Shown here: in pieces, positions 5,840 through 31,279 of the stretch
Numbering within the stretch: the first letter of the stretch is position 1
Layout of the letters: each line of letters opens with the position of its first letter
Origin: an uncultured Poribacteria bacterium
Lineage (GTDB): Bacteria; Poribacteria; WGA-4E; WGA-3G
Direction: 5' to 3'
DNA: 64,000 nucleotides
Assembly: GCA_951828515.1 (NCBI GenBank)
Contig: OX639992.1
Coordinates: 4,008,217 to 4,072,216, forward strand
Notes under the pieces: model-generated
Database searches by the model: none
What the model saw: the letters and a program-made list of their open reading frames with translations, nothing else
What the model was told of the DNA's origin: nothing
Program-made: the position numbers and the translations under genes

Positions 5840-8107
5840 GTGTATCTCTGGAATAGACTTTTCTATAGTAAATTTTCGCTTGTGAACTGTGCCAACAAGT
5901 TTATAGTCCTACTTGCACTTCTCCTTGTGTGGGGATGCGATTCCCAACAAAAAAAGCAGACGCAGCAACCAACAACACAGCAGCCAGCGACTCCTGAAGC
6001 AATAGAACCTGTCCTGCCCCCTCGTGCTGAAGATTGGCATATGTTCATGCACAATCTTGGCTTTTCTGGGATTAGCCCCGACAAAAGCATTACACCGCCA
6101 TTGGAACTGCTGTGGAAATTCAAAACCGGTGGGCCGATCCACGCTTCACCAGTGATTGCGAATGGCATTTTGTATATCGGATCGACCGATGGCAAGTTAT
6201 ATGCACTGGATGCGAAGCAGTGGGGTGTCAAGTGGGTTTTTGATGCTGGGGATGCTATCCGCTACTCTGCAACGGTCTTGGGAAATAAGGTCTACTTTAG
6301 CGCGAGGAACAACAAAGTTTACGCGTTAGACGCGAAAACGGGTGAAAAACTATGGGAATTCAAATCGAGAAGTTGGATGGACGCGCCGCCAATCGTTTTG
6401 GACAATAGGGTTTACATCGGTGCGTTTCCTTCAAAAATCTATCTGCTGAACGCGAGTACAGGGGTCCTTGAAGCGATGCGTGAGCGAACCATTCGTATTC
6501 AGGGTATCGAATACGGGTGTGCTAATGCGGTGTTTCGTCCTATCTCTCCAGAACACAACGCCGATTTGTGGCGGGATCACACAAATGGCAGTGAGAGTTA
6601 TCCTGTGACGGCGAATGGTATCGTCTATATCGGTGCCCGCGATGGACACCTTCACGCATTTGATGTAGCATCCCAGACTGAAACTTGGACATATCAGCTC
6701 GGGGGGTTTGTGGGTGCTGCCCCTGCAATCTCCGATGGCTTTCTCTATGCCGCTTCTGGTGATGGCTATGTTTACGCCTTTACAAATGCAAGCGAGGTTA
6801 CAAATCTCGCCAGCGGGAATTCCGCAACAGATAATGGGCGGCAAGGAACTGTGGTACATGACGCGGCACCGGTCTATACAAGAAAGGATGGGGGTACAAC
6901 CACCACCGCTGAAGGAACATCTGTGTTGTTACAACTCAACGATGGAGTGCGTTTGACAATTGTGCGAGTTTCGGACGGGTGGTATGAAGTTGAACTCCCG
7001 CACGGTGTACGAGGATGGATGGACGAGTTCGCCTTCGGTGAGTTCAAAGAGATAGACGGTATTATGTTCAATACGACTTTCTGTCGCAAGGAAGATCACT
7101 CGATTATGGAGCCGTATAGGGTGCAATTGATTGACGGCGCTGAGTTTCCGCGCTGGAGCCCGGATGGAGAGTTCATCGCATTTTTGAGAAGAGAAGATTT
7201 GAGTGGCAGATATTGGCGTGCGAATGAGTTGTGGATTATGGATCGGAAGGGGGAACGGGCACGTAAGTTCTACACCGGAGACTTTTACAATCCATACCTC
7301 TCTTGGTCGCTTGATAGCAGGCTTGTTGCATTTGAAGTTGACGAAAATGGTGAACGCTTTATTTGCACAGTCGATTGGAAATTCGGACGGATCAAACAGT
7401 TAGCTCATGGAGATGGACCTGCCTTTTCACCGACATCTAACCGTTTGGTGTTCAGGAGACGCGAAAAGGGAATGGATGTTGTCTATCGAATCAATAGCGA
7501 TGGTAGTGGTTTGGGTGCTATTGCCCGCGTACCAATTGAACGCCTACAGCGTACCTATACCTATCTGTCAGCACCCTCTTGGGCACTCGATGGCACTCGT
7601 GTTGCCTTTGGTGTAAACAATTCAAAATATATTGGCATCCGTATTCAAGATATAGAAGGGAGACGGATAAAAGAAATCCTGACGCAGCATCAACAGGTCC
7701 ATCATCTGAACTGGTCGGAGGATGGAACCCAATTGGCTTATGTCTTGTCCGGTAGTAACCGCCCGGGGCAACTGATTGATAAGCAACTGCACTTATCGGA
7801 GACAGGGGCCACTTTGACGCAGAGTCAGATTTTGAAACACACATCACCCGCGTGGTCGCCAACAGGTAAACAGTTAGCGTATATGGAACGTGAGGACTGT
7901 GTGGGCATCCGCTGGAAGGTCTGGATTTATGACCTTGAGAGCGGCAAAAAATTCCCTATCGCCCGTACGCCAATGAAATTGACATCTGTTGTCTGGATGC
8001 CTGACGGTAAGCATCTCTGCTTATGGCAAACATCAAATTACTTGCGCGACAACGCATATAAACCCGCCCTGACGAAGGGATGGATTGTACCTATTGACAT
8101 TCCTTAG
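5840..8107 (+). CDS. Lipoprotein with PQQ-type propeller, SH3-like and TolB-like domains
   Basis: The 755-aa protein starts at GTG 5840 with AAAGGA upstream. The N-terminal hydrophobic segment ends in a lipobox (LLVWGC, Cys about 33), so it should be a membrane-anchored lipoprotein. Residues about 80-330 hold PQQ/Pyrrolo-quinoline-type repeats such as GKLYALDAK and NKVYALDAKTGEKLWEF. Residues about 345-405 resemble a bacterial SH3 domain ending in HGVRGWMDEF. Residues about 430-750 are WD40/TolB-like repeats such as FPRWSPDGEFIAFLRR. The role is probably protein or ligand binding at the envelope; no enzyme motif was seen. Its stop overlaps the converging alcohol dehydrogenase gene by 4 bp. 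Confidence 0.85.
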   Translation: MYLWNRLFYSKFSLVNCANKFIVLLALLLVWGCDSQQKKQTQQPTTQQPATPEAIEPVLPPRAEDWHMFMHNLGFSGISPDKSITPPLELLWKFKTGGPIHASPVIANGILYIGSTDGKLYALDAKQWGVKWVFDAGDAIRYSATVLGNKVYFSARNNKVYALDAKTGEKLWEFKSRSWMDAPPIVLDNRVYIGAFPSKIYLLNASTGVLEAMRERTIRIQGIEYGCANAVFRPISPEHNADLWRDHTNGSESYPVTANGIVYIGARDGHLHAFDVASQTETWTYQLGGFVGAAPAISDGFLYAASGDGYVYAFTNASEVTNLASGNSATDNGRQGTVVHDAAPVYTRKDGGTTTTAEGTSVLLQLNDGVRLTIVRVSDGWYEVELPHGVRGWMDEFAFGEFKEIDGIMFNTTFCRKEDHSIMEPYRVQLIDGAEFPRWSPDGEFIAFLRREDLSGRYWRANELWIMDRKGERARKFYTGDFYNPYLSWSLDSRLVAFEVDENGERFICTVDWKFGRIKQLAHGDGPAFSPTSNRLVFRRREKGMDVVYRINSDGSGLGAIARVPIERLQRTYTYLSAPSWALDGTRVAFGVNNSKYIGIRIQDIEGRRIKEILTQHQQVHHLNWSEDGTQLAYVLSGSNRPGQLIDKQLHLSETGATLTQSQILKHTSPAWSPTGKQLAYMEREDCVGIRWKVWIYDLESGKKFPIARTPMKLTSVVWMPDGKHLCLWQTSNYLRDNAYKPALTKGWIVPIDIP

Positions 8108-9291
8108 AACGCCGCCTCAAATAAATCCACCATATCCTCTTCCGTACACACCCTCGGATTGAATTTGTGACAGTGGTCGAGCATCGCATCCGCGCCGAGT
8201 TTTGGAATCTTTTCCCGCTCCAAACCAGCATCTCCAAGACCTGTAGGTATATTCAACTCCGCGTTATATGCCCTGATTTTATCAATCGCGGCATGTCCTG
8301 CTTCGTCGATATCCATATTACTTGTATCTATACCTAAGGCGCGTGCGATTTCTGCGTATTTCTCGCTTGCATGAGAAAAGTTGAATTCCATGACGGGTGG
8401 AAGGAGAATCGCGTTTGCTACGCCATGGGGTATGGGTGCGTCTGTAGAGAGTTGATGTGCCAGAGAATGCACCGCACCGAGTCCCTTCTGGAACGAGAAT
8501 GCTGCCATGCAGGATCCGAAAAGCATTTCACCACGTGCGGTTACATCTTCACCGTTGTGATAGGCCTGTTGGATATTCGCACTCAACATTCTGAGTGCCT
8601 GCAATGCAACACCCTCAGCAATAGGGTGGTACTTCGTCGCCACATACGCCTCGATACCGTGCGTGATGGCATCCATACCTGTCGCAGCCGTAAGGGCAGG
8701 TGGCATACCAAGGGTTATTCCAGGATCAAGGAGCGCAATGTTCGACATGTTGAAGGGTGTAACGATTGCCCGTTTCCGCCATCGATCGGTTGTCTGGAAA
8801 GATGTATCTGTAATGATTGAGCCTTGTGACACCTCACTGCCGGTGCCAGCGGTAGTCGGTACACATATTAGCGGTGGCATATCGCCTCGGATGCGCTCGA
8901 CGCCACCAACATCAGCGTAATATGGAGCGAGGTTGGAAACCTCGCCAGCGGGTGGTTCGTGGGTCGTCAGGAGACGGATGGCTTTGGCGGCATCCATCAC
9001 GCTTCCACCGCCAACAGCGATGACGACATCACATCCCTCGGCTTTGTAGGCTTCTACACCGTGTGTAACACTGAGGTCCGTGGGATTCGGTTCGATATCC
9101 GAATACGTAGCATAAGACAAACCGCTTGCCTCCAAGGCATCTGTCGCTTTCGCAAGGAGACCCGCATTGATAACACCCGCATCGCTCACCAAGAACGGTT
9201 TTTTGCCGTCAAACGCCTTGACGTGTTCGCCTAAGTTTTGGATTGCTCCGTCGCCAAATTCGATTTGCGGAGGTAAAAAATAGTTTGGCAT
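8104..9291 (-). CDS. Iron-containing alcohol dehydrogenase
   Basis: This is a group III (Fe-ADH) NAD(P)-dependent oxidoreductase of 395 aa, the normal length. The nucleotide-binding signature GGGSVMDAAKA lies at about 94-104. Metal ligands are expected in GMDAITHGIEAY and HSLAHQLSTDAPIPHG, where the Asp and His residues of the family are present. The substrate is unknown; relatives act on butanol, lactaldehyde, 1,3-propanediol or similar alcohols. The start is ATG 9291 with a weak AGGA upstream. It lies 13 bp downstream of the TGT-fold gene on the same strand, which suggests co-transcription but no clear functional link. Confidence 0.93.
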   Translation of the reverse strand: MPNYFLPPQIEFGDGAIQNLGEHVKAFDGKKPFLVSDAGVINAGLLAKATDALEASGLSYATYSDIEPNPTDLSVTHGVEAYKAEGCDVVIAVGGGSVMDAAKAIRLLTTHEPPAGEVSNLAPYYADVGGVERIRGDMPPLICVPTTAGTGSEVSQGSIITDTSFQTTDRWRKRAIVTPFNMSNIALLDPGITLGMPPALTAATGMDAITHGIEAYVATKYHPIAEGVALQALRMLSANIQQAYHNGEDVTARGEMLFGSCMAAFSFQKGLGAVHSLAHQLSTDAPIPHGVANAILLPPVMEFNFSHASEKYAEIARALGIDTSNMDIDEAGHAAIDKIRAYNAELNIPTGLGDAGLEREKIPKLGADAMLDHCHKFNPRVCTEEDMVDLFEAAF

Positions 9292-9304: not shown

Positions 9305-11233
9305 CTATAATTTATCTTGTATTGCCTCAACCAAAGCATCTAAGTTGGTATGCCTGAAGAATTCGGCTAAGCGTTTCTGTCTGAGTTCTTTCGGCAACAA
9401 TATGAACCCCGGAAAACGCTCCTCTGTGAGTTTAAAGACTGCTCTATACGCTCTGCTTGTCGCGTATCCTATTTTAAGCGTATAACTGTCGGTATATTTT
9501 TGTAGATAATCGGTCAGACGCGTCGCGCATTGTTCAATCTGGGCTTTGTTTTTAGGGGAGAGCTGAAAATCGTAACGTACAACAGCGTCCTCTGTCTCAA
9601 ATTCCTCAGGAACGGGACCATAGAGTCCAGAAAGTGTTATTTTGTGGATACGCTCTTGTCCTTCCCCGAAAGCAATTTGAAGTCTGTTTGCGACCATCGT
9701 GTGCGTACGTGATAGTGAGTAAGGTTTCTTTCCAGCACACGGGATCATAAGGAGGATTTCTTTTCCATCAGGCACCATATAATCACAAGGAACCCGAAAA
9801 TCATCGGGAGTATATGCCAGTGAGACCGTTTGAGACTCTCTATCTCCTTGGGCAGTTTGGGTTTTGTTCTCTGTATCCCCGAAGAGTTCCAACTGATTTA
9901 AGCTCTGCTGCGTGTGCTTCGCTTTCGTAGGTGTGGGTGTCTGAATTAACGTGCGAGCCAATCGAACTGCGAGGGTCCTATCGTTTTCAGAGAGCCACGC
10001 TGTCGCACGCCGCAACCCTCGGAAGTTCTGGTATTTAGCAAGGTGTCGGACTAAACCTTCAAGGGCATCGTCTGCCGCGATTGCGGTACGCATTTCATCA
10101 AGAATATCCGCTTCCGTTTGGAAATTATGAAGCCCAATAGCGGCATAGTACTCGCTCTTAAACTTGCCTGTGGAGGTGGCTCTATAACTCTGTTTATCCA
10201 TGAATGCCTGCTGAATTTCCTGAAGCGGATATGCCTCGCAGATGTAACAGCCACAGTCTGTTTCATCCATCTCCATGATTCTGAGTTTCTTTTGGGTGTG
10301 CGGTTGTGAATATGTGAGACTCCGAGACGTGTGAATATACCCAGAACTGTCAAACGTGTCAACGCCGATATAAGCGAGGAGCGGCGTAAGCACACCTGAA
10401 ACACCGAAAGCGTGAATAGGTGTCGTATCTCGTCGGTTATCTGGGATTGCTTGGACGACACCGTTAACCAGTTCCATCACTTCGGAATCGTCTTTACCAC
10501 GTAAAGGCACAAGTGATCCAACAGCCAACCCAAATGAGGGTAATATGCCACTCATTTGCGCAAAGAGTTGACTCACATAGTCCGAGATGTCCTCTCCAGA
10601 TTGACCATGACAGCAGGTATAAAGATAAGGTGCCGTCCGGATTTCGCTTGTGTTTGTTGTCAAGCGTTCTGCCACTCGGACTGCGTTTGTAAGACTCTGT
10701 TGCATCCGCTCTTCAGCTTCTGGACGTGCTAAGTTGGGCGGGAGCGGGTAATCCAAAGAGGCGACTATATCACCCTCAAAGCCTAATTGGAAGTCGAGGA
10801 TGTCCTCCGCCTCTGTTTCCTTGTGAATGCCAAATTCCTGCAGATCCATACCTGTGTTGTACAAAAGTTTGAACCCGCCAGAATCTAAGAAAAAAGCACC
10901 CTCATACACACCATTCTGTTCGCGATAATGCTCTCGCATTGACTTTCCACGCCAATTTTCAAGGTATCGTCCGGTGAGCGGGAAATCGAGAAAATGTAAA
11001 ATCTGAGACAGCATAGGTGTCTGTTGCTGCATCAGAATCTTTAGAATATATTTCCAGACACCACCGCCACGTGCGCTCGTACCCGTCAAGAAATTGATGA
11101 CTGGGTATAGCACTGGCGTTTCAAGTTTTCTATTGTTAGTACTCAACCTGAGTTCACCTATCCGCCCGTGTGGTGTTGAGGTAACTGTATGGTAGGTAGG
11201 GATGGGGGCTTCGGTTTGGGAGTGCTTTGTCAT
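9305..11233 (-). CDS. TGT-fold 7-deazaguanine transferase with ArcS-type motif
   Basis: The 642-aa protein has two parts. Residues about 20-400 are a tRNA-guanine-transglycosylase-like barrel with the general-base loop DSGGF (117-121), the nucleophile region GVDTFD (290-295), a zinc set CGCYIC (327-332) and His369. So the transglycosylase residues appear intact. Residues about 480-642 contain PCAGKKPYSLSRTH (498-511), which matches exactly the PC-X3-KPY-X2-S-X2-H signature of archaeosine synthase ArcS (DUF5591). In archaea ArcS acts on preQ0 at tRNA position 15. In bacteria, TGT homologues of the DpdA type insert preQ0 into DNA. Which substrate applies here is unknown. No queC, queD, queE or dpd partner is visible in the window. 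The ATG at 11233 has a weak ribosome binding site. Confidence 0.8.
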   Translation of the reverse strand: MTKHSQTEAPIPTYHTVTSTPHGRIGELRLSTNNRKLETPVLYPVINFLTGTSARGGGVWKYILKILMQQQTPMLSQILHFLDFPLTGRYLENWRGKSMREHYREQNGVYEGAFFLDSGGFKLLYNTGMDLQEFGIHKETEAEDILDFQLGFEGDIVASLDYPLPPNLARPEAEERMQQSLTNAVRVAERLTTNTSEIRTAPYLYTCCHGQSGEDISDYVSQLFAQMSGILPSFGLAVGSLVPLRGKDDSEVMELVNGVVQAIPDNRRDTTPIHAFGVSGVLTPLLAYIGVDTFDSSGYIHTSRSLTYSQPHTQKKLRIMEMDETDCGCYICEAYPLQEIQQAFMDKQSYRATSTGKFKSEYYAAIGLHNFQTEADILDEMRTAIAADDALEGLVRHLAKYQNFRGLRRATAWLSENDRTLAVRLARTLIQTPTPTKAKHTQQSLNQLELFGDTENKTQTAQGDRESQTVSLAYTPDDFRVPCDYMVPDGKEILLMIPCAGKKPYSLSRTHTMVANRLQIAFGEGQERIHKITLSGLYGPVPEEFETEDAVVRYDFQLSPKNKAQIEQCATRLTDYLQKYTDSYTLKIGYATSRAYRAVFKLTEERFPGFILLPKELRQKRLAEFFRHTNLDALVEAIQDKL

Positions 11234-20839: not shown

Positions 20840-21425
20840 ATATTTTCCTTTCTTAATTGTTTGCATTAGGAGTTAATACGGATTTACGTATTATGCCCTA
20901 ACAAGGAGATTTTCAATAGATTAGTTAATATAGTTAATTTCCAAAATTTTGTCAAGATTTTTGGTAAATTTCTCAGTACCATTTAGTTTTCGGTTTTCAG
21001 TTTTCCGGAATCGGAATTCCCTCCTACAGTAGAACTATGGTAAAACCGACGATTACTTAGAGACTCTAAAGAGGCGAAGTTACAAACCTCACCAGCAGTG
21101 ATGGGCGCGTTTGGGGCTACAACTTACTGAAGTGTCTACTTAATTTATAGAATTTACCATAAATGCCTAAAATAGAAAAGTTCTCGAGATGATTTTCGAT
21201 TTTAGGTTGTTCATAAAAGATAATTTATCGGTTAACGTTCGTTAATTTTTTTGGATATATCTATGCTATTTTGTTGTCAATGGTTTTGGTTTCTGCAAGA
21301 GGCTGTTATTACATTATATATGATAACATATTTAGTTTGGGATGCCAATTTATTTTTTTATGGCTGGCGAGGTTCGGAAACCGTACCTACCAATGGAGTG
21401 CGTAAGTCCTATCGTCTTTAATTTT
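20840..21425. other. 586-bp AT-rich intergenic region with palindromes
   Basis: No gene is supported here. It holds a 21-bp block (21007-21027) that recurs inverted at 56429-56449. Two degenerate members of the palindrome family lie at 21073-21093 (GGCGAAGTT-ACA-AACCTCACC) and 21366-21387 (GGCGAGGTT then AAACCGTACC). The rest, about 21170-21350, is strongly AT-rich. This is the 3' side of the damaged hsdR gene, so it may have taken part in the rearrangement. Confidence 0.6.
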
Positions 21426-22325
21426 TTACGCTGCCCAATCTTTGCTCAATGCCTCTGCTTGTTCCAAGGCGGTTGCAGCGGCTTTTTCCTGTAACCCTTC
21501 TTACCGCCTGAAAAAAGGCAACATCGTTGTGAATCTCAGTTGTTTTTTCATCTGGAACAGCCAGTGCAAACGCCTTAGAGAGCTCAGTAACCACTTGCAG
21601 TAAACGCTCTTTGCCATCTTTTTGTGCCAATATATGTTCTTGTGCTGATGGTAGTAATCTAATCCGATCTTCAGCGTTCCCAGTAACCCAAGGTGACCAA
21701 TCAAATCCATGAAATAGCCCACAACAGATCTCGTATTTCTCCAACATCACGGCGACTGCATCCGCTTTATTAAGAGTAGCGTCTCCTTTTCCACCGCTTG
21801 TAGTGTAATTCTGTAATGCCTGTTTTAGATGGTAAGCAAGTCCTATGTAGTCTACAATCAAACCGCCGGGTTTGTCGCGGTATACGCGATTGACACGGGC
21901 GATTGCCTGCATCAGACCGTGTCCACGCATCGGCTTGTCTACATACATGGTGTGAAGACTCGGCGCGTCAAATCCTGTTAGCCACATATCACGGACAATG
22001 ACAAGCTTCAGCGAGTCATCGGGGTTTTTGAATCGAGTCGCTATCTCCTCGCGCCGCGCCTTATTTCGGATATGTGGCTGCCACGATACATCATCAGAAG
22101 CAGATCCAGTCATCACGACTTTTATTTCACCATTTTTGTCATCATCATCATGCCACTCTGGACGGCGTTTGACAATCGCGTTGTAGAGGTCAACGCAGAT
22201 GCGACGGCTCATACAAACAATCATCCCCTTACCGTCTATCGTCTCCAACCGTTCTTCAAAGTGTGCAATAATATCATCGGCAATGAGTCCGAGTCGCTTT
22301 CTTGTTCCGACCAATGCCTCTAATT
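21426..22325 (-). pseudogene. hsdR: Remnant of type I restriction subunit HsdR, twice deleted
   Basis: The open frame 21418-22557 encodes 379 aa but is chimeric. From about [14 protein letters not shown] to FFQAVR it matches the second helicase domain and following helical region of HsdR ([54 protein letters not shown]). The N-terminal nuclease and first helicase domain with Walker A and DEAD are absent. Right after FFQAVR the natural C-terminal end ([21 protein letters not shown], stop at 21426-21428) continues in another frame, so about 150 residues also seem lost. Upstream it is joined in frame to DUF4276 at a shared Leu-Glu-Ala. It cannot encode a working restriction subunit. An assembly artefact is possible. 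Confidence 0.82.
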
Positions 22326-22652
22326 CCTCAATCGCCAGCCGATTGACGACTTGAAAATTACCTTCTGAAGTTGCGATGGATTTTGTCCGAAAACCTGCTT
22401 CGTGTGCTGCGCTCTCTAATTTTGCCTTCAGTTCGTGACAGTCTTTCCGATCTTCATCAATAAGCACCATAATTCGCCAATCGTAAGGTATCCACTGGTA
22501 TCCCTTTAATCGCGAAGCAAGATTATTAACCAGGTCGTCCTTGCCTTCAAAAACCAAAAAGCCAAAAGTGACATCGTTAGAAAAATTTTGGGTAAAATAG
22601 CCTTCAATGCTTCTTCCGCGGACGGTTCCTCTAACAAGAATTCAATGTGCAT
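22317..22652 (-). pseudogene. DUF4276 (TOPRIM-like) partner of AAA ATPase, frameshifted and truncated
   Basis: Starting at ATG 22652 the frame reads [20 protein letters not shown] then PKIF, the typical DUF4276 N-terminus. A -1 shift near 22590, at AAAATTTTTC, is needed to continue as [16 protein letters not shown] and [20 protein letters not shown]. The acidic pair EEPSAEE and the DEDRKD block resemble TOPRIM metal sites (inference). The family normally continues after AIEELEAW; here it runs into HsdR sequence. The ATG overlaps the end of the SEFIR-AAA gene by 11 bp, which indicates translational coupling, as is usual for AAA-DUF4276 pairs. About half of the protein is missing. Confidence 0.8.
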
Positions 22653-24312
22653 GCACACTCCGTTTCAGACCGCCTGCATTGGTCAGCGGATCACCAAATT
22701 CAAAGAACCCTTCCCTCCAAAGCTGCCCCAATTTTGCCCCTGCTTCCATAAAATGATTAATTCCCAGCATGTCCGAGGCGCGTTTGCACACTGTCCATCC
22801 TTGTTCATTTCGGTACAACACCCACACTTCTTCAGCAGTGAATTCATTAACAAATTGAGGTGAGTGCGTGGTAATTATAAATTGGGACCCCATGCATGCC
22901 TTAATGCAGTCCTCCACAAAACCTGTCAGCAAGCGCGGATGTAGGTAATTCTCAGGTTCCTCAATACCTATTAACTGTGGTGGTTGTGGATCGTATAACA
23001 AAGTTAGGTAGGAAAGTAATTTTAACGTGCCATCCGAAGCGAACTTCGCCAAGATGGGTTGATCAAACGGGGCATCTTTAATCTTTAGCAAGCGGCGACC
23101 ACTCATCATTAATTCTGTGTCAACCTTTTCTAAACGCGGTACCCGATTCGACAGCATAGAGATAATTTTTTCCAAACGTTCTGGGAATCTTTCCTGCAAG
23201 TATTGGATAACATTGGGCAGGTTGTCGCCTGTTGGGGATAATCGCTTTTGCGGTCCATCGTTGGTTGCTTGGCGCGTGGCATCGGTAGAAAGGTCAGAGA
23301 GATACCAATCTGTAATAAAGCGCCGAAAGGCACTGACGCGCGGGTGATGTGTGGATTGACCAAACATACTTGCTGCGATCGTTGTGGGATCATCCAGTTG
23401 CTCATCGATAGGTTTATCCGTTTTATCGGGTGTTTCACTAGGAATTACACTGCCTTTTCCGTGACGAAAATTGAGGAAACGCACATGTTTTCCGCGACTT
23501 CCGCGCCGCCACTGCAGCCACTCGGTTTCAACAAAGGGTCCTTCCGTGTCTTCATTGATGGAAAGATAATAGGTGATAATTGGTGTTCCGGATTCTTCGC
23601 GATATTTCAATTCAAATTCAATGGGACCATCACAACCTCGTGTTCTCAGTTCCTTGAAACCTTCCCTTTTGTCCACTGCACGGCGCAGCCCGTCCGTGAA
23701 ACATTCAGCAAGGAACGCAAACACATCAAGGAACGTTGATTTTCCACTGCCGTTCGCGCCTAAAAAGACAGACAACGATTTGAGTTGTTTTAATTCTATA
23801 TTCCGTAACACGCGATAGTTCCTCACACGCAGTGACTCAATATGTGGCACCGATGGCCTTTGCAAAGATGGTACTAACAAACGTTCATGAAGCAATTCCT
23901 CAAATTTAGTATCAAATTGACTATCGTCTGTAAAGTCAACATAAACTCGCCCTTGCAAAAATTTTGGTGTTTTATCCTCTAATAACGTTTGGCGAACTAT
24001 AGGAATAAATTTGTTATTTTCCTGATCTTCAACGATTTTCTTTGTTATAATCATTCGTTCATAGCCCACACCACCTTCACCTGCGTTCGCCTTGCCCACG
24101 TAATTATCTGTGCCAACAACTAAAATCCTATCAGCGTCTACGATGCCGCGTTCCATGAATCGCGCTATATCATCACCCAGCCGAAGGTCCCATTGATCAA
24201 GTGTCGTATCAATGCCATTGTGGCGGAGTTTTACAGCGAGTTCAGATACCCACTGCTTGTGCTCTGGAGAATCGTGAGAATACGAAATGAATACCTTATG
24301 GGTTTCCATCAT
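22642..24312 (-). CDS. SEFIR domain fused to OLD/RloA-like AAA ATPase
   Basis: A 556-aa predicted defence protein. Residues about 6-140 form a SEFIR (TIR-related) domain: KVFISYSHDSPEHKQWVSEL, LDQWDLRLGDD, ADRILVVGTDNY, GVGYERMI and VYVDF. Residues about 157-556 are an AAA/SMC-like ATPase with Walker A GANGSGKS (185-192), Walker B region PQLIGIEEPENYLHPRLL and the switch TTHSPQFVNEF. SEFIR/TIR domains in bacteria are often NAD-consuming or signal-forming effectors; that activity is inferred here. ATG 24312 is chosen because GGAG lies 8 nt upstream; a longer open frame adds 39 unrelated residues. It forms a pair with DUF4276 downstream and has a near-identical SEFIR domain to its upstream neighbour. 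Confidence 0.88.
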   Translation of the reverse strand: MMETHKVFISYSHDSPEHKQWVSELAVKLRHNGIDTTLDQWDLRLGDDIARFMERGIVDADRILVVGTDNYVGKANAGEGGVGYERMIITKKIVEDQENNKFIPIVRQTLLEDKTPKFLQGRVYVDFTDDSQFDTKFEELLHERLLVPSLQRPSVPHIESLRVRNYRVLRNIELKQLKSLSVFLGANGSGKSTFLDVFAFLAECFTDGLRRAVDKREGFKELRTRGCDGPIEFELKYREESGTPIITYYLSINEDTEGPFVETEWLQWRRGSRGKHVRFLNFRHGKGSVIPSETPDKTDKPIDEQLDDPTTIAASMFGQSTHHPRVSAFRRFITDWYLSDLSTDATRQATNDGPQKRLSPTGDNLPNVIQYLQERFPERLEKIISMLSNRVPRLEKVDTELMMSGRRLLKIKDAPFDQPILAKFASDGTLKLLSYLTLLYDPQPPQLIGIEEPENYLHPRLLTGFVEDCIKACMGSQFIITTHSPQFVNEFTAEEVWVLYRNEQGWTVCKRASDMLGINHFMEAGAKLGQLWREGFFEFGDPLTNAGGLKRSVHAH

Positions 24313-24367
24313 CTTTGTATCTCCAATTTGAGATAATTTCCAAAAGTTTCGAGTAATAACGGCTAAT

Positions 24368-25864
24368 TCACATACCCTTAAAGAGATATCTATAAAGATC
24401 GGAAAGGTTCGGGAGAGATATCGCATCAAATCCGCCGGATCTTATCAATGATCCTTCAACCAAGTCTATCCAACTTTCCCATACGCTTTCTACTTGCTCA
24501 CGCGTGACCTTCAAAGAGATCCATAGATCCACAATAGAGTTAGGATTACGGCGTAGCAGAGAAATTGCTTGCTGCGTTGTATCGTAGTCTTCATGCCAGA
24601 AAGTCAATGGAATTGTAAAATAAGGTTCAGAAGTGGTGTTTAACACATCTACTCGCCCTTCAGCGATTACTGTTGCTAATTCATGTATATTCAGAGCCAT
24701 ATAATAAGCAACAAGTGAAGCCCGATATTCTTGTTCTCCTCCAAATATCTTGGATAACCACTTCCATCTTTCATAAGCATTGGCCATATAGTTCCAACTC
24801 TCAAGACTATGTCCGCCACGAGTACCGCTAATTGATTGGGCGTAACCTCTATATTCGCTCATTTCCCATACATGAAAGAATTTTGTTCCGCCAGCAACAG
24901 GAATTTTAACCCGCGCAAGACCCAAGGCAAGATCTATTTGAGATGTACTCAGGCAGAGTGCCCCGTGCAGACTGTGATATACGTACCCTAACGCATTCGG
25001 AAGACGTATCCAAACTTCGTACCCAGCGGGATTCCAACCTACAACGTTTTGCAAGTCATCAAACAAGGATTTTTGATCTCTAAATTCTTCCCTACCGGAT
25101 TCAACTCCCACTAACGCAACAGTCATTAAAGGTGAAATAATTTCAACCGCTTTATCTACAACATGGATTAGATGTTCTTTGTCTTTGGGTTGTTGTCCAT
25201 TTAATTCATCTTGCCGCCATTGAACTAAATCTTTGAATACGTTTGGTCGAATCTGTTTGATGAGTTCCCGCCATCCCAGTGTATCTCCTGCTCGCACGAG
25301 TTTAGAAGCTGTTATATAAGCTGCTGACGCAGATTTAACCTCCTCCGGTATCTCAGTTAGTTGTGTGTCTAATTCCACAGAAGGGAATGGACTTTTTCCT
25401 AAAGGAGGTTTCTCTACAATTGGCATTTCGTGAAGTTCATGAATCAATTTTTCACACGCCGCATCAAATTGACTGTCATTCGTAAAGTCCGCATAAACTC
25501 GTGTTCCTAAAAATGTTGGTGTTTTCTCTCGTCCTGATGCCTGACGGATGATGGGGATGAATTTGTCTGTCCCTAAATTCTGAACAAGTTCCGCGTTTAT
25601 AATCATCCGCTCGTAGTCAACCCCGCCCTCGCCAGTGTTTGCCTTGTCCACGTATGTATCTGTGCAAATGACCAGCACCCTATCAGCGTCCACAATGCCC
25701 CGTTCCATGAACCGTGTTATATCATCGCCTAATCCGAGGTCCCACTGGTCGAGTATTGCGTCAATCCCGTTATGGCGAAGTCGCGCAGCGAGTTCAGATA
25801 CCCACCGTTTGTGTTCTGGAGAATCGTGAGAATATGAAATGAACACTTTAGGATTTTCCGCCAT
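24368..25864 (-). CDS. SEFIR-domain protein with unknown C-terminal effector or sensor region
   Basis: A 498-aa protein. The N-terminal SEFIR domain (about 5-145) has KVFISYSHDSPEHKRWVSEL, LDQWDLGLGDD, GVDYERMI and VYADF. Over that stretch it is about 70% identical by eye to the next gene's domain, with the same residues at nearly every conserved site. The region 150-498 is helical and Trp-rich (YEVWIRLPNALGYVYHSLHG, WNYMANAYERWKWLSKIFGG) and matches no family I know. The ATG at 25864 lies inside the last codons of hsdS (17-bp overlap) with GAGG upstream, so the two are translationally coupled. A longer frame that starts in hsdS is rejected. Confidence 0.82.
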   Translation of the reverse strand: MAENPKVFISYSHDSPEHKRWVSELAARLRHNGIDAILDQWDLGLGDDITRFMERGIVDADRVLVICTDTYVDKANTGEGGVDYERMIINAELVQNLGTDKFIPIIRQASGREKTPTFLGTRVYADFTNDSQFDAACEKLIHELHEMPIVEKPPLGKSPFPSVELDTQLTEIPEEVKSASAAYITASKLVRAGDTLGWRELIKQIRPNVFKDLVQWRQDELNGQQPKDKEHLIHVVDKAVEIISPLMTVALVGVESGREEFRDQKSLFDDLQNVVGWNPAGYEVWIRLPNALGYVYHSLHGALCLSTSQIDLALGLARVKIPVAGGTKFFHVWEMSEYRGYAQSISGTRGGHSLESWNYMANAYERWKWLSKIFGGEQEYRASLVAYYMALNIHELATVIAEGRVDVLNTTSEPYFTIPLTFWHEDYDTTQQAISLLRRNPNSIVDLWISLKVTREQVESVWESWIDLVEGSLIRSGGFDAISLPNLSDLYRYLFKGM

Positions 25865-27473
25865 CGTTTTCCTCCAATATCTCAGCTGCATCATCCACAC
25901 GAATTTCACCGGACAATAGTTTCGGCAGTAGTGTGTCTCGAATTTGGGTGAGTGTATGGGATTGATGGATATTTTCGATAATCCCTTTGATAATTGGTTG
26001 TATGAATTCAGTATATTTTTTGGCAATTTCGACTTTAGGCAGCACGATTTTATACCTTGACATATCATTCCAATTTGTCCGTGGCATTCTTGTTCCCTCC
26101 GAGCATGCATCGGTATAAGCAATGAAATTGTCACTGGACACCAAACCTAAAACAACACCGAACCACTCTGAATCAATTGGCCGAATTACTAAAATATCAG
26201 TTGAACAAATCCCATTAATAGGTGCAACACCAACCTTGTGGAAATAAGGTCGAAGTTTGCCAAAAAGGATTTCACCTTTTTTAAAGCGAGATTTGTTACT
26301 AATAATCTCCGCGGCTGTTTGCCATTGGAAAAGGGCTATATTCCGCCTCGGCATGTGTTCTAAACCTATATAACACTCGTTGGAGTCAATTTCACTTGAT
26401 TTTACGCTCCTCCGAACATTTTCTGAAACCTCGCCGAGTGTTCCAACTTTCCATCCCTGGGGAATCTCTCCAAATGGAGAATCTTGGAACGCAGATGGGA
26501 ATAGTCCCGCGGTTTCGGTGTCCATACATGGCGGTTCGCGCCCTTCTATCTTTGCTTTTACAGGGGCAAAGTCTACAAACCATGACTTGAAAATTGTGCG
26601 TGCCGTTGCTTCCAGAGTCTCATTCATCTGTCGGTTGAGTTCGATTTTGTCGTCAAGTGTGCCGAGGATGTGAGCAATACGACGTTGTTTTTGAAGAGGC
26701 GGGAGAGGGATTTTGTATCGCGATACCCATTCCCATTTAGCCCGTGGCATTCGTGTGCCTTCGGATCCGGAATCAGCAAAATCAACAAAAGACTGAGATG
26801 CCATGCAATAGTAGAGGAAACCTTGATCGACTCCCTCTTTGGCGCGCGTTACCCAAATATCTGTTGAACATATACCATCAAAGGGAGCTCTGACGACTTT
26901 ACGGAAATAGCATCTCAATTTTCCGAAAAGGATATCACCTTCCCTGAAACGAGACTTTGTACTCGTGACATCACTTGCTATACCTTGTCCTATAAGAGAT
27001 AGCGTGTCTTCTCCGATATGCTCAAGTCCTATGTAAGGCGTATCACCTGAATCGGAGGGTGATACGTTTTCGCGAATCAACGTCGCACAATCGCTGAAAA
27101 CCTTTACTTGCCACTCACTTTCTGTCTCACATTTTCCATGAATACCGATAAGTTCCCCTTTTGAGTTAACAGGTTGTGCTTCTTGTATTACTTCGTATTG
27201 TTCGATAATTACTTTCTTGAAACCTTCTGATATTGACTGCCAATCTAGGACATCAACCCGAAACGGAAGGTTAGATTCCTCAAAAGCTGCTTTTAATCGA
27301 CGTTCCTGTCTAATGCTTAATGATTTACTGCCGACGACAGCAAGATCAAGGTCGGAATAATCTTTTGCAGTCCATTTCACACGTGATCCGAACGCACGAA
27401 CTTCGTATTCGGGTATATATTCAGTTAGTATGTACTGAATTGTCTTTAGGTGCTTAGGATTGAGATCAATCAT
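25848..27473 (-). CDS. hsdS: MntA-type nucleotidyltransferase fused to type I specificity subunit HsdS
   Basis: One 541-aa frame with two parts. Residues 1-115 are a minimal nucleotidyltransferase of the HI0073/MntA type with a perfect GSX10DXD motif (G29-S30, D41-L42-D43). Residues about 125-541 are HsdS: two target-recognition domains, each with a YIGLEH ... KSRF ... LFGKLR ... GICSTDI pattern, separated by a long helical spacer (IAHILGTLDDKIELNRQMNETL) and ended by the C-terminal helix. I see no in-frame ATG, GTG or TTG between the two parts, so a separate hsdS start is unlikely. It overlaps hepT upstream by 8 bp and SEFIR downstream by 17 bp. HsdS picks the DNA target for HsdM. Confidence 0.88.
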   Translation of the reverse strand: MIDLNPKHLKTIQYILTEYIPEYEVRAFGSRVKWTAKDYSDLDLAVVGSKSLSIRQERRLKAAFEESNLPFRVDVLDWQSISEGFKKVIIEQYEVIQEAQPVNSKGELIGIHGKCETESEWQVKVFSDCATLIRENVSPSDSGDTPYIGLEHIGEDTLSLIGQGIASDVTSTKSRFREGDILFGKLRCYFRKVVRAPFDGICSTDIWVTRAKEGVDQGFLYYCMASQSFVDFADSGSEGTRMPRAKWEWVSRYKIPLPPLQKQRRIAHILGTLDDKIELNRQMNETLEATARTIFKSWFVDFAPVKAKIEGREPPCMDTETAGLFPSAFQDSPFGEIPQGWKVGTLGEVSENVRRSVKSSEIDSNECYIGLEHMPRRNIALFQWQTAAEIISNKSRFKKGEILFGKLRPYFHKVGVAPINGICSTDILVIRPIDSEWFGVVLGLVSSDNFIAYTDACSEGTRMPRTNWNDMSRYKIVLPKVEIAKKYTEFIQPIIKGIIENIHQSHTLTQIRDTLLPKLLSGEIRVDDAAEILEENDGGKS

Positions 27474-27879
27474 TGCGTTCCTCTAATACACTTAAAAGTT
27501 GCTTGGCCTCATGGATAAATTCGGTAGCTTCCGCGAAAACATTTTCGGCAGCATCCTCATTGTAAGTATGGGAGGTGGAGTTACGCGCTCTATGATAATC
27601 CATCCAGCGTTCTGCATCAGTGATGAGAAGATGTTCCGCTGCCCTACGAAAGAGTTCACTTTGATAAATACCGTCAACATAAGTGTCACCCATATTTTCT
27701 TTAAGCCACCGCTTTATCATTTTCCACGACAGTTCGTAAGCAACCTCAAAGCTATGAATGACTCCGGCGCGGACTGTTTCCAGTAAATCTTTATCAGAGG
27801 CATCAATTCGGCCCGCTGTCTTGACAGAACGTTCCAGAATATCAATAGATTTTGTTAAACTGTCTAATTGTAAACTCAT
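27466..27879 (-). CDS. hepT: HepT-type HEPN protein (HI0074 family)
   Basis: A 137-aa all-helical protein of the HI0074 / nucleotidyltransferase-substrate-binding family. It carries the HepT toxin motif RX4HXY exactly (R99-NSTS-H104-T-Y106). In characterised HepT/MntA pairs, HepT is an RNase that is silenced when MntA adds AMP to that Tyr. Here the MntA-like partner is the N-terminal domain of the overlapping next gene, hsdS. The ATG at 27879 has GAGGTGA upstream. The gene follows the AlbA_2 gene by 38 bp. Toxicity is inferred from the motif only. Confidence 0.88.
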   Translation of the reverse strand: MSLQLDSLTKSIDILERSVKTAGRIDASDKDLLETVRAGVIHSFEVAYELSWKMIKRWLKENMGDTYVDGIYQSELFRRAAEHLLITDAERWMDYHRARNSTSHTYNEDAAENVFAEATEFIHEAKQLLSVLEERND

Positions 27880-27917
27880 AGTTCACCTCAATAGTTTAAT
27901 GTCAAGGAACATCAACA

Positions 27918-29672
27918 TCATTTTGCATCTCCTGTAGAATAGGGACGATATTCTATTAATGCGGAACGGCCAATGATAGCAACAAGGCATACTATCAGTT
28001 CTCTTCCATCGGCATCAGTAAGGCGTAAATCTTCTCCGGGAATGAAAGTAACGGGCTGCTGTTTTCCTTCATTGATAGCGATGTTGGAGGCATAAAGATA
28101 CGTCCGATCATGTGTATCGCGAATAGGATTCAAACGTCCAGATAAGCCTGGGATGTTACCTGTTGCTTCGGGAAAAATTACCGATCCGCCATCTGAGAGA
28201 CTTTGCATTTTAATTTCAAGTTTCCCCTGTTCCGGTGCCCAGTCGTGTTCAAGGTGGGCAGCAAAACTCGGAGCAGCTGCATATACCGTCATAGGGAGGT
28301 GTGTCGTGTGCAAATCAATTTGTGCCTCGCCATTTTCGTCGGTAGTTGCGCGTTTCCATGTTTTATTGGGAAATAGCACCAATAGTTCAACCCCAGTCAG
28401 TGGGTTGCCACTGGACTGAACAAATATACCAGTGGTTGCAGGCGTAGGTTCTGTTTCAGCGGCTGGAATCGTAAGAAACAGATCTGAATCATCAATGAGG
28501 TGGTACTTAGGGCGTTTGCCACTCAAATCTTCCGTTTCACGAAAGATGGTTGGCACGCCGTCCCCACGCCTCTCCATGAAAAATTGTCGTTCACCCGATC
28601 CCCGGATACCTTCAGTGGGTATTCGTCCGAGTATTGAGGCGAGTGCTTCGTTTCGCGTTGATTGTCGGACATCCATGCTATCAATCGTAAGATTGTTTGG
28701 TAAACCGCCGGGAGAGTTTATTTCAACGCGGTCGGCGAACATTGAAAGCCGAATCCGACTACTGTAAATTGCGTAGTCGCGGTGGACAACAGCGTTGACA
28801 ATCGCTTCAAAGAGTGCACTGTCACTGTATTGTGGCAGGTCGGTGCGAGCTGGGTTTTTGTAGGCACCAACGCGCATGTTACGTACAGCAAAGGCAACCG
28901 TCTCAGCAATTTGTCGGTTCAGCGGACCGGTAATTGTCTGGGCATCTGTCTGTCCGGAGGCGCGGTCTTTGCCACGGTAACACGTGGCAGAGATGCAAGC
29001 GTTGGGGAGCCATTCCTCGGGGGAACGGGTGCATAAGAGAACACCCGCCACGGTAGCGCGCAGTGTCCCGTTCTCGTCACTGGTCAGAACTCCCATTTTC
29101 TCCAGAGCTAATTCAGGGGCAGCGGCACCTTCAGCACTCAACAACGGTTTCCAAAGGGATTCATCCAACGCTCCAAAACCTGTTCCCTGAACAGGCTGTT
29201 TATCAAACCAGAGGAAGCGTGCCTGCCCACGCTTCTGTGCGAGACGCAAGCGTTCATCACTAGTCATTCTGCGTTTTGAACTGCCAACTCGGTGGTAACT
29301 ACCACCGGGGCTATCATGCTGCGTATGTCCCTGGCCAACCTCAGCTAAAAGGAACGGCTTATCCACCTTTATTTCCTTACGAAGGATGGTAGGTCGAATT
29401 GGGGGTTTAATCATATCAGTGCAAATTTCGGTCAAGAGTTGTTCGAGGGCATCCATCTGCTTGCGCGACATGCCTTGGACATCACCGCTGTCGGTTACAC
29501 CACACAGGACCACCCCGCCCTCGGTGTTAGCAAAAGCGGCAAGTTCATCTGCCAAATCATCACGCTGCTGACTCTTCGGAACGTCTCCTGCGAACACGAT
29601 TTCCTTGAATTCCCAGTGACTGTCTTCACCTAAGCGTATTTGGCGTTTGATTTCCTCCTCGCTGAAATTCAT
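27918..29672 (-). CDS. AlbA_2/Schlafen-like ATP-binding protein with Ig-like extension
   Basis: A 584-aa protein. Residues about 15-130 are an AlbA_2 (Schlafen AAA_4) nucleic-acid-binding domain: HWEFKE and [19 protein letters not shown]. Residues about 290-380 hold the HATPase_c_4-type motif, [15 protein letters not shown] then VEINSPGG. This layout (COG2865) is common inside type I restriction operons, where the role is regulatory or defensive but unsettled. Residues about 405-490 form a transthyretin or Ig-like module ([26 protein letters not shown]), and a further 90-residue segment closes the protein; both are unusual additions. The ATG overlaps the hsdM stop (ATGA). Confidence 0.85.
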
Positions 29673-31279
29673 GAATCCTCTCCAAATCCGAGTATCTCTA
29701 AATTCTTAGCGATAGTCTTATCCAGTCGCCTTGCCTCTGCCATCTGCTCGGTCAATTTTTGGGTCAAGTGTGCTATTGTATCCTCAAAGGGTTCGCTATC
29801 TTCCTCTTGAACTTCTGCCCCGACGTAACGTCCGGGAGTCAGGACGTTGGTGTGCGCTTGGATTTCGGCAAGCGTAGCACTTTTGCAGAAACCGGGCACG
29901 TCGGTGTATTCACTCGTGTCTGCATCGCCTCGCCATGCGTGATAGGTTTCGGCAATGCGTGTGATTTCCGCATTCGTAAGTTCTCGATGCGTACGGTCAA
30001 TCATGGTTCCTAAGCTGCGAGCGTCTATAAACAGCATCTCACCGGTTCTCTTGCGAAAACGATGGTCTTGTTTATTCTTAGTGAGAAACCAGAGACAGAC
30101 AGGAATTGATGTGGAATAAAATAGTTGCCCGGGCAACGCTACCATGCAGTCCACCAAGTCGGCATCAGTAATGTTCTTACGAATTTCACCTTCATTGGCT
30201 GTATTGCTGCTCATGGAACCGTTTGCTAACACAAATCCAGCGACACCGTTTGGCGCAAGGTGATAGATAAAGTGTTGCACCCAAGCGAAGTTGGCATTAC
30301 CGGTAGGTGGGGTGCCGTAAACCCAACGTCTATCTTCACGCAACCGGTCACCGCCCCAATCGCTGCTGTTGAACGGCGGATTGGCGAGGATGTAATCAAC
30401 TTTCAGGTCTGGGTGCATATCGTCGTGAAAACTGTCGGCGTGTTCCTGTCCGAGATTCGCCTCAATGCCTCGAATTGCGAGATTCATCAGTGCCAATTGC
30501 CGCGTCGTTGGGTTAGACTCTTGTCCATAGATAGAGATATCATCACGCTGTCCACCGTGTGCTTCGACAAATGCTTCACTCTGGACAAACATCCCGCCTG
30601 AGCCGCAGCACGGATCGTAAATTCGTCCTTGATAGGGTGCGAGCATCTCAACGAGAAGCTGCACAACACAGCGGGGAGTGTAGAACTGACCCCCTCTTTT
30701 GCCTTCGGCACTGGCGAATTGTGAAAGGAAGTATTCATAAACCCTGCCCAGTATGTCTTTTGAACGATTCTCTTCTTCACCTAAGCCGATTGTGCTTATG
30801 AGGTCAACGAGTTCGCCGAGGCGTTGCTTGTCAAGTCCTGGACGTGCATAGTTTTTGGGCAGAACACCTTTGAGTCGTGGGTTCTCCTGTTCAATTGCAA
30901 GCATTGCGTCATCAATCAGTGTTCCAATTGCTGCTTGTTTAGCGTTCGCCTGTAGATATGACCAGCGTGCTTCCTGTGGTACATAAAAGATGTTTTCTGC
31001 TAAGTATTCATCCCTATCCTCTGCATACTCAAAACGATTGATTTCCTCTTTAATATAGGATTCACTGTCAGGATTGGCAAATTCTTGAAGCAGGAAATTG
31101 TACTTTTCCTCAAAAGAATCCGAGATATATTTAAGGAAAATTAATCCCAATACGACGTGCTTGTATTCCGCAGCATCCATGTTATTGCGGAGTTTATCGG
31201 CTGCTTGGTATAAGGTCGCTTCAAAGCCGAGTGTTGCGCCGTTTTTATTGGTGTTTGTGTCTGATTTCTTTTTTGCCAT
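29669..31279 (-). CDS. hsdM: Type I DNA methyltransferase subunit HsdM
   Basis: This 536-aa N6-adenine methyltransferase works with HsdS to modify the recognition site. The helical N-terminal domain is at about 15-165 ([20 protein letters not shown]). SAM motif [10 protein letters not shown] is at 222-230 and catalytic motif IV NPPF at 300-303, both intact. The C-terminal part ends in coiled-coil-like sequence ([17 protein letters not shown]). It heads a tightly packed operon with four overlapping or closely spaced genes downstream. With hsdR destroyed, M and S could still act as a solitary methyltransferase. A promoter candidate lies at 31426-31454. Confidence 0.95.

Follow-up and report, generated by a model that had tools for sequence, protein, structure and literature searches.

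Archaeal ArcS consists of a TGT-like domain followed by a DUF5591 core with the signature PC-X3-KPY-X2-S-X2-H. The ArcS of T. kodakarensis forms preQ0-Lys by attaching lysine to tRNA-borne preQ0, and RaSEA is the partner for archaeosine, or G+ (PMC11298593). ArcTGT (TIGR00432; structure 1iq8) features two Asp regions, a Cys3-His zinc site, and the motif GVDxFDSxxY. DpdA (7ui4; Nostoc and haloarchaeal representatives) belongs to the same TGT superfamily, and DpdC, assigned to DUF328 in a survey of BREX systems, acts on dPreQ0 (PMC12839542). Vibrio phage nt-1 encodes DpdA2 and ArcS separately, and its DNA carries dPreQ0, dADG, and some (low) dG+ (PMC6884629). Finally, a TGT in BREX-related (BRC) defence operons has been proposed to mark DNA; no DpdC homolog is reported there, and no ArcS core has been described for this system (PMC12839542).

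The protein considered here joins a TGT domain and an ArcS core in a single bacterial chain. No description of such a TGT-ArcS fusion was found in the literature searched, in which coverage of key papers is incomplete. On balance, we favour its interpretation as a bifunctional 7-deazaguanine nucleic-acid modification enzyme that most likely acts on DNA and whose product is likely not standard archaeosine.

Domain architecture of the fusion

The window analysed here, a stretch of 64,000 nucleotides, originates from a sponge-associated bacterium, namely from a single-contig Poribacteria chromosome of 5.85 Mb. Its fusion gene occupies 9305..11233 of the minus strand, on which all features of the gene lie, and encodes 642 amino acids from an ATG start. 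Pfam recovers a TGT catalytic domain at residues 23-399 (10037..11167; PF01702, E=6.8e-20) and the ArcS core domain DUF5591 at residues 484-583 (9485..9784; PF17884, E=1e-12). The TGT half features Asp117 of DSGGFK in the first catalytic Asp region (10883..10885); Asp295, the predicted nucleophile, in G290-VDTFD295 (10349..10351), which aligns to GVDLFDSASY of ArcTGT; and a zinc site formed by C327, C329, and C332 of CGCYIC (10238..10255) with H369 as the fourth ligand (10127-10129). Within DUF5591, the signature PCAGKKPYSLSRTH (residues 498-511; 9701..9742) reads P498-C-AGK-KPY-SL-S-RT-H511 and is an exact PC-X3-KPY-X2-S-X2-H. The sequence-only reading had described both Asp regions, a full zinc site, and the exact ArcS signature as an active-looking TGT and an ArcS motif in one bacterial protein, and this description holds in every part.

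Family profiles place the solved structure of ArcTGT, 1iq8, nearest to the TGT domain (E=7e-20) and match the ArcS core to 2q07, AF0587 (E=4e-5). Against the NCBIfam models for ArcTGT (TIGR00432) and ArcS (NF040592), the fusion scores 84 and 70.7 bits, respectively. Both values fall far short of the equivalog cut-offs (350 and 440), so the fusion is a relative of each family without belonging to either. Relative to archaeal ArcS, which shares its domain order, the fusion has an intact TGT half where that of ArcS is degenerate, and both a PUA domain and a RaSEA partner are lacking. With ArcTGT, the fusion shares both Asp regions, the Cys3-His zinc site, and the GVDxFDSxxY motif, but it bears an ArcS core and again lacks the PUA domain; TGT and DUF5591 are the only Pfam domains, and the protein ends shortly after the core. 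DSGGF or DSGSF is the tRNA-type TGT motif preceding a conserved Gln, present in 1iq8 and in the host Tgt, whereas every fusion encodes Lys122 at this position.

An ordinary queuosine Tgt is ruled out, as the fusion reaches 30 bits against bacterial Tgt (TIGR00430; cut-off 306.75) and a separate Tgt in the same genome scores 549 bits. A close kinship to DpdA is likewise rejected: no PADLOC model of DpdA matches at E<=1, the DpdA motif is DCGA(F/W)G instead of DSGGFK, the partner domain differs, and DpdA forms a separate clade in the TGT-domain tree (support 100/100). A PHROGs search of the fusion returned insignificant matches only, and a structure prediction from five sequences reached a pLDDT of 39 and a pTM of 0.30.

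Distribution and selection in Poribacteria

The fusion is present in 18 of 85 Poribacteria genomes, with split or broken copies counted. Sixteen copies, 47-91% identical to the window protein, can be aligned from end to end; D117, D161, D292, D295, C327, C329, C332, and H369 are invariant among them, as is P498-C499-x3-K503-P-Y-S-x-S-R-T-H511. Since the architecture recurs in these 16 copies and in three on haloarchaeal plasmids, it is neither a chance event nor an assembly accident. The catalytic, zinc, and signature residues are common to both groups, with Asp117 and Asp295 invariant and P-C-x3-K-P-Y-x2-S-R-T-H conserved in all copies. Archaeal contamination is ruled out by the single-contig chromosome and by synteny among relatives. 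In one genome (G084), a frameshift near residue 167 breaks the frame (L005 8001-9949), representing either a pseudogene or a sequencing error.

Compared with four relatives, the TGT half shows a dN/dS of 0.06-0.07 and the ArcS half one of 0.07-0.11, versus 0.26-0.44 in the linker; for the fusion gene, the estimate is about 0.09-0.10. Values of about 0.1 in each half indicate purifying selection, and both halves are therefore maintained. Divergence of the fusion tracks that of QueC (Mantel rho 0.76, p about 0.0006), so part of its inheritance is vertical, as would be expected of a tRNA gene with a housekeeping role. Some movement is also suggested by the patchy presence of the gene and by genus g9, in which the copies of G021 and G023 cluster with another genus and occupy a different locus from those of G018 and G019.

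Plasmid-borne copies in haloarchaea

A plasmid search recovered full-length homologs with about 32% identity on plasmids of Haladaptatus (NZ_CP119784), where two copies lie less than 1 kb apart, and Natrinema (NZ_CP082247), which carries the third. The TGT-domain tree joins Poribacteria and haloarchaeal fusions (support 94.5/95) and does not group them with ArcTGT, although its deeper nodes are weak and ArcTGT is represented by one fragment only. The Haladaptatus copies adjoin an SF1 helicase and a module of a helicase, PLD, DUF6884, another TGT, and an ATPase. The Natrinema copy is flanked by a PbeA-like helicase, a helix-hairpin-helix protein, a DruE/DpdJ-like helicase, and a STAND NTPase. 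Judged by their gene content, these surroundings are helicase-rich defence islands. As ArcS is detected in Haloferax volcanii, a plasmid copy dedicated to tRNA should be unneeded in haloarchaea. No phage relatives were recovered by tblastn at E<=1e-5, nor any on viral contigs in three scans; loose phage matches cover a single domain each at about 20-30% identity.

Restriction-modification genes near the fusion

Restriction-modification (R-M) genes flank 8 of 19 Poribacteria fusion loci and none of 18 control windows, which are hand-chosen positions rather than a formal random sample (Fisher p=0.003); with sister pairs merged, the count is 6 of 17 loci (p=0.008). At E<=1e-10, defence models identify 99 families among 111 fusion-neighbour proteins, type II methylases foremost, against 19 families and zero R-M enzymes among 120 control proteins. 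Within a few kb of the fusion are an Eco57I-type enzyme and a Snf2-PLD helicase (L053), Mrr and MutH-type endonucleases (L049, L050, L056), N6/N4 methylases (L054, L056, L095), and D12/Dam-type methylases (L004, L095); further neighbour genes at the last two loci are L004 4307-5449 and L095 1653-2423. In one genome (G017), the fusion frame begins exactly where a Dam-type gene ends. R-M genes are plentiful in these genomes in general, and N6/N4 methylases in particular number 8-74 per genome. Taken alone, PF01555 methylases within 5 kb of the fusion number 3 against 0.94 expected, a borderline excess (p=0.07) that sharpens within 2 kb (p=0.007). The MutH-type endonuclease, present in 21 genomes and adjoining the fusion in only two, is ruled out as a dedicated partner.

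The window genome has no restriction gene within 4 kb of the fusion; about 10 kb separate the fusion from the start of a type I-like locus. Read by eye, this locus (21418-31279) comprises HsdM (29669-31279), HsdS (25848-27473), and a short HsdR-like piece (21418-22557); two TIR/SEFIR-like proteins (22642-26134), together with a schlafen/AlbA-like gene, break it up. The adjoining alcohol dehydrogenase-like gene, also assigned by eye (8104..9291, minus strand; cluster C2), recurs beside the fusion in many Poribacteria, within families f1 and f3, and is probably inherited synteny with no known functional link. Most f1 loci lie among metabolic genes.

Unlike Dpd systems, the Poribacteria copies show neither a surrounding dpd cluster (DpdB/C plus restriction genes) nor an adjacent DpdB-like partner, and the haloarchaeal copies are accompanied by DpdJ-like and other helicases. 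The dpd genes sought at the suggestion of the sequence-only reading do not adjoin the fusion in the window genome; its proposal of DNA as a plausible target, however, gains support from the haloarchaeal islands and the R-M neighbours.

preQ0 supply and the absence of RaSEA

A lack of any preQ0 pathway, which would have weakened the same reading, is not what the window genome shows: FolE (4.6e-73) adjoins two PTPS/QueD-like domains, and the genome also encodes QueC (1e-76) and a QueE-like radical SAM protein (81 bits, under cut-off). With this gene set, the host very likely makes preQ0. A canonical Tgt and QueF are also present, so queuosine is handled by its own enzymes. A second full-length QueC occurs in another fusion carrier (G028:C1:99042-99683), whose main copy lies on another contig.

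RaSEA (TIGR01210) has no match over cut-off in any fusion carrier; weak radical SAM matches in G005 and G015 fall under it. The one match, in non-carrier G003, is a RaSEA-like radical SAM protein just over cut-off (L081; G003:C239:805-1743) in a genome that is 76% complete and possibly contaminated. Because RaSEA is absent from all carriers, standard archaeosine is an improbable product, and this part of the original proposal is not retained.

ArcS, DUF6884, and DpdC as candidate nitrile-processing modules

Profile comparison by hhalign matches the ArcS core to DUF6884 (probability 92%, E 8e-7). DUF6884 in turn matches, with a probability of 97%, the DpdC-like domain fused or adjacent to DpdA in Nostoc and haloarchaea; the direct match between ArcS and DpdC is weak (20%). 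Two motifs are shared, C-x3-K and LS(G/A)-x-YG-x-(V/I)P. The DpdC/DUF6884-like domain is fused to the N-terminus of DpdA in Nostoc (L090 2653-4797) and to its C-terminus in Haloarcula (L089 5978-8887), and is a separate gene adjoining DpdA in Natronosalvus (L088 6351-9259). These DpdA fusions parallel the TGT plus nitrile-processing design of the TGT-ArcS protein, which we infer to be one of several independent couplings of base exchange to preQ0 nitrile processing. On this reading, ArcS, DUF6884, and DpdC would be tied together as candidate nitrile-processing modules, repeatedly joined to transglycosylases.

Proposed function

The fusion is likely a bifunctional enzyme. By homology, the TGT half would use Asp295 covalently, with help from Asp117 and the zinc site, to replace guanine in nucleic acid with preQ0. 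Through its Cys499-Lys503 motif, the ArcS half would then attack the nitrile of the inserted preQ0 and build the derivative in place. Rather than standard archaeosine, the likely product in the absence of RaSEA would be a lysine adduct or an amide/amidine. The same two DNA activities are predicted for DpdA2 and ArcS of phage nt-1, where they reside in two genes (PMC6884629). A DNA target is better supported by the haloarchaeal defence islands, the R-M genes at fusion loci relative to controls, and the parallel DpdA-DpdC-like fusions; on genomic context, DNA is more likely than tRNA. The mark would be a tag for self-marking or defence: it may act as an accessory self-tag, or work together with the restriction genes that happen to lie close by.

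Among the alternatives, it is possible but rather unlikely that the fusion modifies tRNA, probably at G15, as a bacterial ArcTGT and ArcS in one chain that yields preQ0-lysine or a related base. The TGT half scores best against ArcTGT (TIGR00432, 1iq8), yet it is not placed with ArcTGT in the tree, where deep support is weak, and Lys replaces the Gln conserved in tRNA-type TGTs. The zinc site is intact and the domain order is that of archaeal ArcS, but RaSEA is absent; inheritance is mostly vertical, but presence is patchy. Although most f1 loci lie among metabolic genes, the fusion also has R-M neighbours, and the haloarchaeal copies are plasmid-borne in a class that already has ArcS. The missing PUA domain would be compatible with a tRNA target because that of ArcTGT is reported to be dispensable (Sabina and Soll 2006, a title cited in PMC11298593).

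Formation of true archaeosine in bacterial DNA or tRNA, by ArcS alone or with an unrecognised partner, is doubtful. The exact ArcS signature and the low dG+ of phage nt-1, which has an ArcS homolog (PMC6884629), are consistent with it, but T. kodakarensis ArcS yields preQ0-Lys and has RaSEA as its G+ partner (PMC11298593). No carrier encodes RaSEA, and the radical SAM matches in G005 and G015 are under cut-off. It is very improbable that the substrate is neither host DNA nor tRNA, for example protein, which is deazaguanylated in type IV CBASS (Cap9/Cap10), or phage nucleic acid only. A defence-like context points this way, as does a weak hit to Cap10 in profile comparison (9ntn, E=0.07), but this hit lacks significance, the fusion loci show no Cap9-like partner, and the known substrate of the ArcS domain is preQ0 within nucleic acid.

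Returning to modification of DNA by a bifunctional fusion, a more specific version is tentative and may well not hold in full: a single-chain DNA hypermodifier, shared by Poribacteria and haloarchaeal plasmids and accompanied by changing restriction modules, would insert preQ0 and finish it with the ArcS core, independently of RaSEA, to give an undescribed base such as a preQ0-lysine derivative. If the favoured interpretation is right, one enzyme would perform two steps that are divided among proteins in archaea and Dpd systems. ArcS-type chemistry would then take place in bacteria and on the DNA of cellular genomes, and a setting free of RaSEA would predict a new modified base. The fusion allows a one-gene test in E. 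coli, itself a preQ0 maker.

Other TGT and DUF5591 genes

A second kind of TGT, about 400 amino acids long and missing the zinc Cys, was observed in seven Poribacteria genomes (L065 and L070-L075; G073, G074, G040, G054, G015, G047, and G066). Its operon is conserved and defence-like, featuring a BrxC/D-like ATPase, a Pfam-less protein, a PIN-domain protein, a small protein, a DUF6884 protein, and sometimes a PAPS-reductase-like gene or a DNA methylase. Haloarchaeal plasmids likewise harbor further TGT genes in defence-like operons (L086 2123-5995; L088 9962-13046; L089 10025-13094), accompanied by DUF6884 and PLD on the Haladaptatus plasmid; the operons of Natronosalvus and Haloarcula include a BREX-type ATPase, and queE and a queD-like gene lie nearby on the Haloarcula plasmid. 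Finally, stand-alone DUF5591 proteins of about 290-345 amino acids (L063 5862-6899 in G002; L064 9368-10231 in G008) have an N-terminus that resembles a winged helix, and their signature is altered to QC-X3-RPF...SHG.
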